From: Bacteroidales bacterium
GTDB taxonomy: Bacteria > Bacteroidota > Bacteroidia > Bacteroidales > ML635J-15
Direction of reading: 5' to 3'
Length of the DNA: 34,994 nucleotides
NCBI GenBank assembly: GCA_028701945.1
Contig: JAQVPT010000003.1
Span: forward strand, 1 to 34,994
Both the position numbers and the translations under genes were made by a program. Within the stretch, counting starts at the first letter, position 1; every line of letters starts with the position of its first letter. Under the pieces are notes generated by a model. It did no database searches. It was not told the origin of the DNA and was given only the letters and a program-made list of their open reading frames with translations. Below, piece after piece: positions 7,538 through 12,520 of this stretch.

Positions 7538-10460
7538 TCACTTTCATAAATTGTTACTTATTTTTCTGCTAATTTGTTTTAGTGGATTAGCATTAGCACA
7601 ACAAGAATTTAGACAAGAAGTAAATCATAAAATAAATGTGGAACTCAATGTCATTAACAAAACCTTGAAAGGGCAAATTCAAACTGAATATATTAATAAT
7701 TCTCCCGACACACTCTTATTCCTTTATTACCACCTTTGGCCAAATGCATATAAAAACTTAGAAACGCCTTTTGCCCAGCAGCAACTACAAATTGGGTCTT
7801 CCGATTTTTATTATTCTGACGATGAGTACAAAGGACATATAACATGTGAAAACTGTAAAATAAACGGCAATAATGTCAAATTTATTGAAATAGGAGAAGG
7901 AATAGAAGATATAAAAATTTTACAATTGCCTAATCCTCTTTTACCTAGCGATACATTAGTGTTTAGTGCTAATTTTGTTGTGCAGATACCAAAACTTACA
8001 AGTCGATTAGGCTGGAGTAATAAAGATTTTTGCATTTCTCAGTGGTATCCAAAACCTGCTGTTTACGATTCTTACGGCTGGCATCCAATGTCATATCTTG
8101 ATGTAGGCGAATTTTATTCTGAATTTGGTCGCTTTGATGTTAATATTATTTTACCCGACAATTACTTAGTTGCGGCAACTGGTGACTTAACCAATAGACA
8201 AGAATTAAAACGACTTGAAAACTATGCCGATTTATGTAAAAAAATAAGTGTTAGGCAGGATATTATAAGCTTCGGAGACTCTACCAAAACAAAAACCTTA
8301 AATTTTGTTGCAAATAATGTTCATGATTTTGCATGGTTTTCTTCACCAGATTTTATTGTTGACAGAAAATTCCATTTTATGGAAACTCAAAATAGATATG
8401 TCAATTGCTGGGCATTTTATCATAAACATAATTTTGAGTTATGGTCAGAGGCAACTGATTATATTGCAAAAACAATTCATCTGATGAGTCAAAATGTTGG
8501 CGATTATCCATTTAATAATTGCACTGCCGTTGATGCTCCTTTGGGTGCAGGTGGAGGTATGGAATATCCGACAATTACAGTAGTTAGTGCAGATAATAAA
8601 CGTTCCTTAGAAAATGTGATTGCCCACGAAGTTATTCATAATTGGTTTTATGGTATGCTTGCAAGTAACGAAAGAGATAATCCATGGATTGACGAAGGTT
8701 TTACATCGTTTTATGAGTGCAAATATTTTGATCATTACTATCCCAACGAAGGAACATTTACTGGATTGATTAACAAAAACATTAAGATACACGGATTAGA
8801 AAAACTACCAGAAAGATATGCAAGGGAATTAGCCTGGAAATATTTAGTATCAGAGAACTTGCACCAAAACCCTAAGCTTAATTCTGAAGAGTTTTCAGTA
8901 TTTAATTATTTTATTTTATCATATTATAAACCTGTTATGGCTTTGTATAGTCTCGAAGAATACATTGGACACGATAATTTTCGCGAACTTATGAGAACTT
9001 TCTTTGATAAATACAAAAACACGCATATTTATCCCGAAGATTTAATCGAACATTTTTCATCTAACTCAAGTAAAGACATAACTTGGTTTTTTGATGATTT
9101 CTTACTTTCAAACAAAAAGCCAGACTATAAGATTTCTGGTTTAAGACAAGACAGCCTGATAATAAAAAATGTAGGAAAATGTTCGTCTCCTCTATTTTTA
9201 CAGATTGGCGACTCAATCATTATTAGCGATGGATTTACAGGCAAAAAAAGATTTTATATCGGGCAAAGCACTGATTTTGCAATTGACCCAGAATTTAAAA
9301 CTCTTGACCTTAATAGGTCTAATAATTATTACAGAAAAGGATTTTTAAAACCTAACAGACCTGTAAAACTCAGCATTGCAAATTTTATGGATAATCCACA
9401 AATTTTTCAGATACCAGTTTTGCCAATGCTTACATACAATACAGCAGATGGTTTTAGTCCAGGATTACTCATTTATACAAGTCCATTTCCTAAAAAGAAG
9501 TTTGAATTTCAGATTATGCCTTTATGGGGTATTAAAACTGGTTTATTGAACGGTTTTGCCAATATTTCGTATTTTATTCATCCTAAAGAAAAGATAATTA
9601 AAGAAATAGAGATTTTTACTTCCAGTCGCAGGTTTGGTCTAGGTGATGATATGAAAGGTTTTTATTTTAAATTTTCACAAGGACTTTGCATCAGGTTGAG
9701 AACAAATCCAAATAAAAACGTAACATCAGAGTTGATTATGCGAAATGTAACAGCAAACAGTTTTTATTTTTCCAAGAAGGTAAATTTGCATCAGGTTAAA
9801 TATGAATTTAATAATTATAGACTCATAAATCCATGGTCAATATCTGCAGATTTTCATGCAGGAAATGGGTTTAGTAAAATATCTGCCGAATTAATCAAAA
9901 CATTTAATTATAACGAAGATATCGGTTTACGAATTCGCTTATTTGCAGGTAAATTTTTGTATAGTTCAGATGTATATTATGGAAATTATAATTACAGGAT
10001 GTTCGGAAATACAGGCGATCAAGATTATTTTTATGACGAGCTATTTGTCGGCAGAACAGAAAATATTCGTCAAAATCCTGAAAACTTATGGGCACATCAA
10101 TATATTAGAAACGATGGCGGATATACGATGTTTTCACCATTAGGACAAACTGACAATTGGTTACTAGCACTAAATATTGACAGCGAAACTCCATTACGAG
10201 TGATTGATATTTATCTAAATATTGGAGCCTATCCACAAGAACTATCAGACCCAGTTGTAGTTTTATTCGAAACAGGTATTAAATTTAAAATTTTTAAGGA
10301 TTTTTTTAGTATGTATTTCCCAATATATGGCAGTAAAAATGTTTGGGACATTAGTAATGCTATTTATACAGAAAATTATCTGCAAAAAGTAAGATTTACA
10401 TTATCTTTGGACAAATTAAATTTATTGAATTACAGAAATAAACCATTTTTATTATTTTGA
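7527..10460 (+). CDS. M1-family (gluzincin) metallopeptidase
   Basis: ATG at 7527 gives a clean signal peptide (MLNNHFHKLLLIFLLICFSGLALAQ); GAGGGMEYP exopeptidase motif and VIAHEVIHNWFYG...NPWIDEGFTSFYE zinc motif. Overlaps the upstream stop codon. Confidence 0.93.
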   Translation: MLNNHFHKLLLIFLLICFSGLALAQQEFRQEVNHKINVELNVINKTLKGQIQTEYINNSPDTLLFLYYHLWPNAYKNLETPFAQQQLQIGSSDFYYSDDEYKGHITCENCKINGNNVKFIEIGEGIEDIKILQLPNPLLPSDTLVFSANFVVQIPKLTSRLGWSNKDFCISQWYPKPAVYDSYGWHPMSYLDVGEFYSEFGRFDVNIILPDNYLVAATGDLTNRQELKRLENYADLCKKISVRQDIISFGDSTKTKTLNFVANNVHDFAWFSSPDFIVDRKFHFMETQNRYVNCWAFYHKHNFELWSEATDYIAKTIHLMSQNVGDYPFNNCTAVDAPLGAGGGMEYPTITVVSADNKRSLENVIAHEVIHNWFYGMLASNERDNPWIDEGFTSFYECKYFDHYYPNEGTFTGLINKNIKIHGLEKLPERYARELAWKYLVSENLHQNPKLNSEEFSVFNYFILSYYKPVMALYSLEEYIGHDNFRELMRTFFDKYKNTHIYPEDLIEHFSSNSSKDITWFFDDFLLSNKKPDYKISGLRQDSLIIKNVGKCSSPLFLQIGDSIIISDGFTGKKRFYIGQSTDFAIDPEFKTLDLNRSNNYYRKGFLKPNRPVKLSIANFMDNPQIFQIPVLPMLTYNTADGFSPGLLIYTSPFPKKKFEFQIMPLWGIKTGLLNGFANISYFIHPKEKIIKEIEIFTSSRRFGLGDDMKGFYFKFSQGLCIRLRTNPNKNVTSELIMRNVTANSFYFSKKVNLHQVKYEFNNYRLINPWSISADFHAGNGFSKISAELIKTFNYNEDIGLRIRLFAGKFLYSSDVYYGNYNYRMFGNTGDQDYFYDELFVGRTENIRQNPENLWAHQYIRNDGGYTMFSPLGQTDNWLLALNIDSETPLRVIDIYLNIGAYPQELSDPVVVLFETGIKFKIFKDFFSMYFPIYGSKNVWDISNAIYTENYLQKVRFTLSLDKLNLLNYRNKPFLLF

Positions 10461-11227
10461 TAGGCAAAAACAGATATTATATTTCGGATGCACATCTCGG
10501 CATTGATGGAGAATATACTTCAGAGCAACGTGAAACTCTTTTGGTGAAATGGCTTGATGAAATAAGCCAAGATGCGGGGGAAATAAATCTTGTAGGCGAT
10601 ATTTTTGATTTTTGGTTTGAATATAAACATGTTGTTCCGGCCGGTTTCGTGAGATTACTTGCTAAACTGAGAGAACTGACAGATAGAGGAATTAAAATTA
10701 AATATTACACAGGAAATCATGATATGTGGATTTTTGGTTATTTGCCAAAGATTACGGGGGTTGATATTGTGCGTGGAACTGAAATTATCGAACTTGGAGA
10801 TAAGTTATTATTCATCGGACACGGTGATGGATTAGGCTCTTATGACAAAAAATATAATTTTCTGAAAAGTATTTTTAATTCAAAGTTTTTCCAATTTCTT
10901 TTTAAACTTGCACATCCGGAATTATCTTTTCGCATTGCTTTGGCGTGGTCTGCTACTAGTCGTAAGTCGCATAAATATCCCGCAAAAATCAATATTGAGG
11001 ACGAATGGTTAGTAAAATATGCAAAAACCATATTAGAAAATCAGCATATCGACTATTTTATATTTGGACATCGTCATATTCCACTTAAAATCTCAATTAG
11101 CGAAAAAACTACATTTATAAACCTCGGAGACTGGTTAATGAACTTTACTTATGCCGTTTATGACGGAGAAAAAATGGAATTATTGAGTTATAAAGAAAAT
11201 TTGAAATGTGAGCCAGTGATTCTGTAA
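10457..11227 (+). CDS. lpxH: UDP-2,3-diacylglucosamine diphosphatase family metallophosphoesterase
   Basis: YYISDAHLGI, LVGDIFDFWFEY, YYTGNHDMW, FIGHGDGLG, FIFGHRHIP motifs; TTG start overlapping the upstream TGA (TTGA). Confidence 0.85.
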   Translation: MIGKNRYYISDAHLGIDGEYTSEQRETLLVKWLDEISQDAGEINLVGDIFDFWFEYKHVVPAGFVRLLAKLRELTDRGIKIKYYTGNHDMWIFGYLPKITGVDIVRGTEIIELGDKLLFIGHGDGLGSYDKKYNFLKSIFNSKFFQFLFKLAHPELSFRIALAWSATSRKSHKYPAKINIEDEWLVKYAKTILENQHIDYFIFGHRHIPLKISISEKTTFINLGDWLMNFTYAVYDGEKMELLSYKENLKCEPVIL

Positions 11228-11265
11228 TCCAGTGATTCTGTGATCCAGTGATCCAGTGATTCTGT
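11210..11265. repeat. Octamer array 1 (7 units of RATCCAGT/GATTCTGT type)
   Basis: GAGCCAGT GATTCTGT AATCCAGT GATTCTGT GATCCAGT GATCCAGT GATTCTGT; starts within the last codons of lpxH. Confidence 0.9.
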
Positions 11266-11440
11266 ATCATCACATCAACTAATCCTCTCATCTTATTTTT
11301 GTTCTCTTTTCCTTAGTGTTCTTCGTGCTATTCCCTTGTGTGCTTAGTGGTAAAAATAAAAATGAAAACGCAAAGAACCGCAAAGAAAAACAAAACGCAA
11401 AGAACCGCAAAGAAAATGCTGCAATTAACTGCGGGGCAGA
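11266..11440. repeat. Repeat core A (~175 bp)
   Basis: ATCATCACATCAACTAATC...CCTTAGTGTTCTTCGTGCTATTCCCTTGTGTGCTTAGTGGTAAAAA...CGCAAAGAACCGCAAAGAAAA (x2)...GCTGCAATTAACTGCGGGGCAGA; near-identical to core B apart from a 26-bp internal duplication. Confidence 0.9.
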
Positions 11441-11504
11441 GATCCAGTGATCCAGTGATGCTGTGATTCTGTGATCCAGTGTTGCTGTAATCCAGTGATT
11501 CTGT
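11441..11504. repeat. Octamer array 2 (8 units)
   Basis: GATCCAGT GATCCAGT GATGCTGT GATTCTGT GATCCAGT GTTGCTGT AATCCAGT GATTCTGT. Confidence 0.9.
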
Positions 11505-11653
11505 ATAATCACATCAACTAATCTTCACATCTGTTTTTTTGTTCTCTTTTCCTTAGTGTTCTTCGTGCTATTCCCTTGTGTGCTTAGTGGTAAAAAGAAA
11601 AAAGAAAACGCAAAGAACCGCAAAGAAAATGCTGCAATTAACTGCAGGGCTGA
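11505..11653. repeat. Repeat core B (~149 bp)
   Basis: ATAATCACATCAACTAATCTTCACATCTGTTTTTTTGTTCTC...TTAGTGGTAAAAAGAAAAAAGAAAACGCAAAGAACCGCAAAGAAAATGCTGCAATTAACTGCAGGGCTGA. Confidence 0.9.
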
Positions 11654-11701
11654 GATCCAGTAATCCAGTGATGCTGTGATTCTGTGATCCAGTGATTCTG
11701 T
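11654..11701. repeat. Octamer array 3 (6 units)
   Basis: GATCCAGT AATCCAGT GATGCTGT GATTCTGT GATCCAGT GATTCTGT, followed by a truncated third core (11702-~11742). Confidence 0.9.
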
Positions 11702-11750
11702 ATAATCACATCAACTAATCTTCACATCTGTTTTTTTGTTCTTACTTCTT

Positions 11751-11836
11751 TTGTTCTTTTGTTCTCTTGTTCTCTTGTTCTCTTGTTCTCTTGTTCTTTT
11801 GTTCTCTTGTTCTCTTGTTCTCTTGTTCTCTTGTTC
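11751..11836. repeat. (TTGTTCTY)n octanucleotide microsatellite, 10 full units plus a partial
   Basis: Units ending T,C,C,C,C,T,C,C,C,C, i.e. two 40-bp higher-order repeats of five octamers. Confidence 0.92.
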
Positions 11837-11950
11837 AAACGTATTTTGCTTTCAATAATCCTAAACAACATTAAATTAACCGATTACCGATTACTGACAT
11901 TACTGATTACTGTTTTCTTCTTGTCCCATTACACGCATATTTCATAAAAA

Positions 11951-11990
11951 AAAACTCCTGCTCAAATTTGGCAGGAGTTTTTTTTTATGT
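11951..11990. terminator. Bidirectional intrinsic terminator (3' of rpmA)
   Basis: AAAACTCCTGC-tcaaatttg-GCAGGAGTTTT perfect stem flanked by A and T runs. Confidence 0.92.
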
Positions 11991-12001
11991 CGTAATGTAT
12001 A

Positions 12002-12520
12002 TTATTCAGCTTTTTTATCGTCTTTCTTTTCTGCTTTTGGTTTTGCAGTTGTTTTTGCAGCAGCAGGTTTTTTAGCAGTCGTTGCTTTTGGCTCAGCTTT
12101 TTTAGTAGCAGCTTTTGGCTTAACTTCTTTTTTTGCTGGTTCTTCTTTTTTGCTTTCTGTTTTTGGAGCAGCAACTTCAACTTCAACAGCAGCTTCTACA
12201 TCCTTAGGTGTTTCCACTTTAGGTGCTTTTACTTTAGCAACTGGCTTAGTTTCGATAACAGTTTCAACCTCAGACAATATAGAAACAAAAGATCTGTTGT
12301 TTCTTTTCTTTTGAAATTGAACAACTCCGGCTGTTAATGCAAAAAGAGTATGATCTCTACCCATTCCTACGTTTTCACCTGGATGATGAGTAGTTCCACG
12401 CTGGCGAACTATAATGTTTCCTGCGATAGCTTCTTGACCACCATATATTTTAACTCCTAATCTTTTACTTTCGGATTCACGACCGTTACGCGAACTACCG
12501 GCTCCTTTCTTATGTGCCAT
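12002..12520 (-). CDS. rpmA: 50S ribosomal protein L27 with extended low-complexity C-terminus
   Basis: [69 protein letters not shown]; then a K/A/E/P-rich tail of about 85-90 residues. Confidence 0.95.

Follow-up and report, generated by a model that had tools for sequence, protein, structure and literature searches.

The window analysed here is a stretch of 34,994 nucleotides from a Bacteroidales bacterium, in which the gap between an lpxH-like gene and rpmA holds a repeat locus of ~720 bp (11207 to ~11925) that starts inside the last lpxH codons (Table 1). Profile matches agreed with the convergent lpxH-like and rpmA genes named in a preliminary description; the rpmA protein scored above the profile cut-off, and the lpxH-like protein scored below the lpxH equivalog cut-offs (NCBIfam NF003743/TIGR01854).

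Table 1. Features of the repeat locus and its neighbours (window positions).
Feature	Position	Strand	Basis
lpxH-like gene; last ~6 codons and stop fall within the first repeat units	10457..11227	+	ORF and empty-gap comparison with G019/G020
Octamer array 1, GTGATTCT/GTGATCCA units	11207..11266	+	Tandem Repeats Finder (TRF), lag analysis
Linker ATCATCACATCAACTAATC..., octamer register kept	11267..11295	+	Recurrent at other loci of the genome
Core 1, four + boxes CTTAGTG, CTTCGTG, CCTTGTG, CTTAGTG(G)	11312..11349	+	Box scan
Core 1, four - boxes CGCAAAG, doubled via a 27-bp duplication	11369..11412	-	Box scan, TRF
Octamer array 2	11429..11505	+	TRF, lag analysis
Core 2, four + boxes in a row	11552..11589	+	Box scan
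Core 2, two - boxes CGCAAAG	11609..11625	-	Box scan
Octamer array 3	11647..11701	+	TRF, lag analysis
Core 3, truncated: linker only, without boxes	11702..11745	+	Core alignment
Octamer array 4, TTGTTCTC/TTGTTCTT, ~11 units	11746..11836	+	TRF, 96% matches
Heptamer row CCGATTACCGATTACTGACATTACTGATTAC (GATTACC / CCGATTA), near the insert end	11880..11912	+	Sequence; at other loci the module comes next after the TTGTTC array
Hairpin terminator, native to the lpxH-rpmA gap, outside the insert	11943..11989		19-bp inverted repeat, kept in G019/G020
rpmA (ribosomal protein L27), convergent neighbour	12002..12520	-	TIGR00062, 120.9 bits

The results showed that three arrays of 8-bp units each lead into a common core, which begins with ATMATCACATCAACTAATC after each of arrays 1-3, and that two cores are near-identical (98% identity over 94 nt) and the third truncated, all as described before. 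The internal duplication of the core, previously given as 26 bp, has a period of 27. Array 4, into which the truncated core 3 passes, lies inside the earlier range of 11210-11836 but had gone undescribed, and the insert extends further, to the heptamer row. Arrays with a lag of 7 or 8 covered 321 of the 719 bases, against 0 in each of 300 dinucleotide shuffles. The window cores are rows of CTTNGTG/CTTTGCG boxes that fit C[TC][CT]NG[CT]G at a spacing of ~9-13 bp, with four + and four - boxes in core 1 and four + and two - boxes in core 2, the + boxes preceding the - boxes. The antiparallel CGCAAAG motifs proposed to fold back are present, but in the window cores folding does not exceed that of shuffled sequence (z about 0), unlike in related copies elsewhere (z -2.0 to -6.1).

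A protein-coding reading of the locus was rejected, as it holds no ORF besides the lpxH tail. The earlier picture of a non-coding locus filling the gap is right as to the lack of a separate ORF, but the first array overlaps lpxH, whose final codons and stop it provides. An Rfam RNA was rejected as well: the array region gave no score near gathering, and no match to a known Rfam family emerged. A promoter search at the locus found none. Phage or plasmid cargo was also rejected, with 0 phage matches and only a short plasmid match of 78%. GTGATTCTGTGATCCAGTGAT was not present in IMG/VR, where the word CTYTGTG gave at least 120 matches against 93 for its control, an uninformative contrast. Scanning named genomes with CACATCAACTAATCTTC returned matches across unrelated phyla, and we took them as chance.

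We then compared the gap with those of G019 and G020, the two relatives closest to the window in rpmA sequence (90% and 89% DNA identity). Both keep lpxH, the terminator and rpmA, the gap is just ~45-110 bases, and the repeat locus is missing, showing that the window repeat locus is an insert relative to the sister species. The lpxH-like protein ends in ...ENLKCEPVIL before the stop in the window, against ...KDKLK and ...KKKIQ in the relatives, and GTGATTCTGTAA in the first repeat units encodes its Val-Ile-Leu-stop. Repeat insertions of this kind can therefore rewrite the final codons of a neighbour gene. Comparison with the relatives lacking the insert also places the heptamer row inside it, with the right end near 11925, past the CCGATTA units. 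Clean ends or a target duplication were not seen in this comparison, and a duplication of target bases is unreadable at the window gap because the gap sequence has diverged as well.

The preliminary description had allowed that the copies might occur only here. We found dozens of partial copies in the window's own genome, G000 (54 places at E <= 10, many of them weak), and further ones with a like module order in the separately assembled G019 and G020. The recurrent order is a TTGTTC array, a GTGATTCT array, a ACATCAACTAATC linker, the box core, a TTGTTC array, a CTATCAATAATC linker and GATTACC/CGGTTCA heptamers. These copies bear on the idea that misassembly of short reads in a metagenome bin created the locus. 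Among the arrays fetched, several do sit at the end of a contig (C82, C135 and C233, for instance), but substitutions as well as the 27-bp duplication separate core 1 from core 2, and the block structure recurs in two other bins, making an artefact extremely improbable. The earlier reading is partly supported, being right on a composite, non-coding repeat locus that belongs to a dispersed set.

Besides G000, only two species of its genus have the GTGATTCT words. In these three species TTGTTC arrays are common too, whereas 58 others have few or none. As a minisatellite layer, the octamer arrays are distinct from the box words and limited to this lineage. In a contig sample picked for repeats, arrays lay in 6/18 convergent, 6/50 tandem and 0/12 divergent gaps (convergent vs rest, p=0.02). 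Changes in unit number between relatives were found at C220, another locus of the composite family, common to G000 and G019: unit counts there are ~16 vs 2-3 and 11 vs 9, with the TTGTTC array changed by whole units plus one inserted module. The box palindrome at C220 has hardly changed, with 95-100% identity in each 60-bp block against mostly 83-97% in the flanking gene. At C242 the box units are in tandem twice in G000 and present once in G019. Tandem repetition also involves whole blocks in G019 and G020 (146 bp x3 and ~57 bp), which multiply like the array-plus-core blocks in the window. The arrays therefore vary by whole units between species, in a minisatellite-like manner.

Variation within the arrays is concentrated at fixed unit positions. 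Adjacent GTGATTCT units differ with frequencies of 0.53 and 0.39 at positions 6 and 8 (0.15-0.33 elsewhere), and adjacent TTGTTCTA units with 0.54 and 0.47 at positions 7-8 (0.16-0.32 elsewhere). Such a pattern could come from binding or from slippage that requires a matching core. Geobacter metallireducens carries 'global regulator sites' of classes 1-4, made of paired octamer/heptamer words (GTTGCTYN, TCTCCGTSY) on opposite strands (PMC2700814). Like the window, these sites pair short tandem words on opposite strands; unlike it, they use other words, have no described composite alternation of long arrays, and are read as IHF/HU sites (PMC2700814). By analogy with those paired rows, and given the fixed-position variation, the 5-6 bp that stay constant in each word could be a nucleoid or regulatory protein site, with gene-end arrays shaping the chromosome or insulating genes. 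Neutral slippage with a matching core predicts the identical pattern, however, the words vary between families, and the arrays are confined to a few species of the genus, with most lacking them, and missing at the same gap in the sisters. We therefore regard arrayed binding sites as unlikely.

CTCTGTG/CTTTGTG words fill the intergenic DNA of many environmental genomes. The papers searched gave these dispersed words neither a family name nor an enzyme, and a search with the literal repeat strings gave nothing relevant. We scanned genomes of three phyla which, besides named records, were species representatives, many of them bins. CTTNGTGTYCTTNGTGG had 97 matches in 36/297 genomes of the window's phylum, Bacteroidota judging by the window's genes (reversed control, 5). 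CTYTGTGTYCTYTGTGG had 233 matches in 21/148 genomes of the phylum of a Desulfocapsa bin, presumably Desulfobacterota (control, 1), and 93 matches in 23/149 genomes of the phylum of Zavarzinella, presumably Planctomycetota (control, 2). The earlier statement that CTTNGTG-type words are dispersed repeats in other bacteria is borne out by these numbers, far above the reversed controls in three phyla. Among close opposite-strand box pairs in the three-phylum lists, 15/16 read '-,+', as CCACAGAG...CTCTGTGG (binomial p=5e-4).

Several box-word loci adjoin a gene for a GxxExxY protein, confirmed as TIGR04256/PF13366 (PDDEXK_3), a predicted PD-(D/E)XK nuclease on which almost no literature was found. 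We examined 60 GxxExxY genes from two phyla. Short words in inverted rows adjoined most of them at both ends, matching within one gene and differing from gene to gene. Inverted alignment of a gene's own flanks gave a median score of 32, against 16 for swapped flanks, and the arms exceeded the swapped-arm 95th percentile in 44/60 genes (p=9e-24). Windows moved outward by 300 or 700 bp matched in 0 and 1 of 58-59 cases. These moved-window controls rejected the reading that any gene might sit at an inverted repeat; Y1 genes gave 3/11, as expected for hairpin-flanked elements. At least two inverted boxes of the window consensus flanked both sides of 33/60 genes, against 0/60 at 800 bp.

The gene was found in 17/21 box-positive vs 36/127 box-negative genomes of the Desulfocapsa-bin phylum (Fisher p=7e-6) and in 31/36 vs 121/261 of the window's phylum (Fisher p=4e-6), so that 4/21 and 5/36 box-positive genomes lack it. 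Box and gene coincide exactly at G383:C4 (box 112880, gene 112916-113260, box 113421), and also at G180:C18 and G296:C1. The earlier view that no family could be named holds for Rfam, but the CTTNGTG/CTTTGCG words are now tied to inverted arms around GxxExxY nuclease genes, which are a likely source of these dispersed boxes.

Alignment of 40 GxxExxY proteins showed invariant residues of a PD-(D/E)XK site (E27, D67, E77, K79 and Q91). A structure model (pLDDT 96) gave weak Foldseek likeness to lambda exonuclease and the Cas4-like SSO0001 (E 5e-3, TM about 0.5), which we treat as only a hint from a predicted fold. In Sphingomonas parapaucimobilis an element lies between fabD and fabG as TTCACGCGAAGGCGCGAGGACGCGAAG-gene-ATCGCGTCTTCGCGGCTTCGCGTGAA, whereas S. 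paeninsulae and Rhizobium indigoferae have plain fabD-fabG, ~30 bases apart, showing one occupied/empty site pair within Sphingomonas. The element of Bacteroides finegoldii lies immediately 3' of the radA stop codon, a placement like that of the window locus at lpxH. Target-site duplications at 40 testable gene-bearing elements were not above those of swapped pairs.

Genome G383 has a gene-less 280-bp box element (L493-L512, e.g. L493:73-350) with ends GTACTGTCAAAA/TTTTGACATTACC, which is 97-98% identical between loci and shows 7-8 bp target duplications at four of them (AAGGCCAT, GAGCGGTC, CTGGATT and GCGCYGGT). Since such duplications are absent at the gene-bearing elements and present in this gene-less family, the boxes may serve more than one mover. 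The G383 copies are what would be expected of an ordinary MITE, mobilised in trans by a classical DDE transposase, with the boxes internal or subterminal. Such ends and duplications are missing both at the window locus and around the 40 testable GxxExxY elements, and we consider this origin very unlikely here. A RAYT/Y1 transposase is not favoured as the specific mover, as Y1_Tnp genes occur in 23/26 relatives, including array-free ones, and are not specific to array-bearing genomes.

To place the window locus in relation to the nuclease genes, we compared it with their elements. Like GxxExxY elements (TIGR04256/PF13366), it has the same box consensus at similar spacing and stands right after a stop codon; unlike them, it is gene-less, with boxes inside-out (+ then -, against -, gene, +) and set in octamer arrays. 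G000 carries one TIGR04256 match (E 2e-30), and tblastn found no GxxExxY reading or remnant in the window or the fetched G000 loci. Nuclease genes with GTGATTCT or TTGTTCTC octamers as their arms were not seen. The shared consensus, spacing, number and after-stop position of the boxes, together with the genomic GxxExxY match, suggest that the window cores are relatives of element ends. With no gene, inside-out boxes, no above-chance hairpin and octamers that the nuclease does not explain, they are not members. The whole is thus likely a minisatellite mosaic around relatives of GxxExxY element ends. The link between boxes and nuclease is strong in general; for the window locus we infer it, along with descent of the cores from such ends.

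A pure minisatellite without any mobile element would need only chance words, slippage and ectopic recombination, with the likeness to GxxExxY arms put down to convergence of short words. Changes in unit number were observed directly, nothing further is required to explain the octamer and TTGTTC layers, and one-sided synteny with sister species at several array loci is expected of recombining repeats. This account is nonetheless improbable, as a core packs four + and 2-4 - boxes of one consensus into <105 bp, and box words lie far over the reversed control in three phyla, framing one gene family.

We therefore favour, with moderate confidence, a two-layer intergenic mosaic, in which gene-less, rearranged relatives of GxxExxY element ends are combined with minisatellite growth. 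A full element would consist of 3-4 boxes in an inverted row (ACCACAGAG..CACAGAG type), a ~375-bp nuclease gene and a mirror row (CTCTGTG..CTCTGTGGT), spanning ~460 bp, with the nuclease as its only gene, and would often lie just past a gene's stop codon. In the first layer, the window cores would be gene-less, rearranged kin of these terminal rows. The nuclease may act on the box rows, or on hairpins formed by them, and this could let element ends and gene-less copies re-insert by recombination; that it makes the moves, and by this biochemical step, is our presumption. Movement may go by homing-like repair, hairpin processing or annealing recombination. In the second layer, with box rows and short words in place, replication slippage and unequal exchange would expand the 7-8 bp units and later whole array-plus-core blocks. 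If the nuclease link holds, the window records a layered history, with element ends first and minisatellite growth second.

More tentatively, GxxExxY genes and their matched inverted rows may form an unrecognised, very small, pan-bacterial element driven by a PD-(D/E)XK nuclease without a transposase, whose gene-less copies would be the source of the dispersed CTNNGTG-type repeats of Bacteroidota, Desulfobacterota and Planctomycetota, and of the window cores among them. The link would suggest a source for a common class of unexplained bacterial repeat, and it offers a candidate enzyme, whose predicted substrate would be the inverted arms around its own gene.

Among known repeat systems, cyanobacterial STRR heptamers are, like parts of the window locus, degenerate 7-bp intergenic arrays. 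Neisserial intergenic mosaic elements and pneumococcal BOX resemble it by description, as modular intergenic mosaics with a partly fixed module order; their modules are repeats of 20-150 bp, unlike the 7-8 bp words of the window. TAACTGA direct repeats also form degenerate 7-bp intergenic arrays, patchy over phyla including Bacteroidetes, but consist of a single word and lie mostly 5' of start codons in Beggiatoaceae (PMC4679880). The BrickBuilt MITE of Porphyromonas gingivalis is, like the window locus, an intergenic tandem array joined to leader and tail parts, but differs in its 23-bp unit, defined inverted-repeat ends and sequence (PMC4596501).

Several array loci showed further features. 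At L221 (G020:C45), L222 and L224, GC-rich modules (CGATGCACCGAGCGAAGCCGAGG; CGATGTGCTGAGCTTGTCGAAG) always interrupt the TTGTTC unit at the same point, TATTG^TGTTC, and were then multiplied in ~57-bp blocks. The mosaics at L220, L223 and L224 (G019) also hold REP-like CCCCTAAAGGGG modules. At four G000 loci (L140, L141, L142 and L154, on C185, C43, C239 and C156), synteny with a sister species was traceable on just one flank, as if the arrays were rearrangement breakpoints. Directly 3' of a stop codon, L037 (G020:C72) carries a ~30-unit GTGATACA array that closes with the inverted word AGAATCAC, and a long fold-back is expected there. Finally, L034 in G042, from a different family of the order, is an intergenic mosaic of unrelated short-word arrays (GATATTAGTTGATATTAGG, GGTAATTG and CTTAGTG), which suggests that the word-mosaic habit predates the genus.
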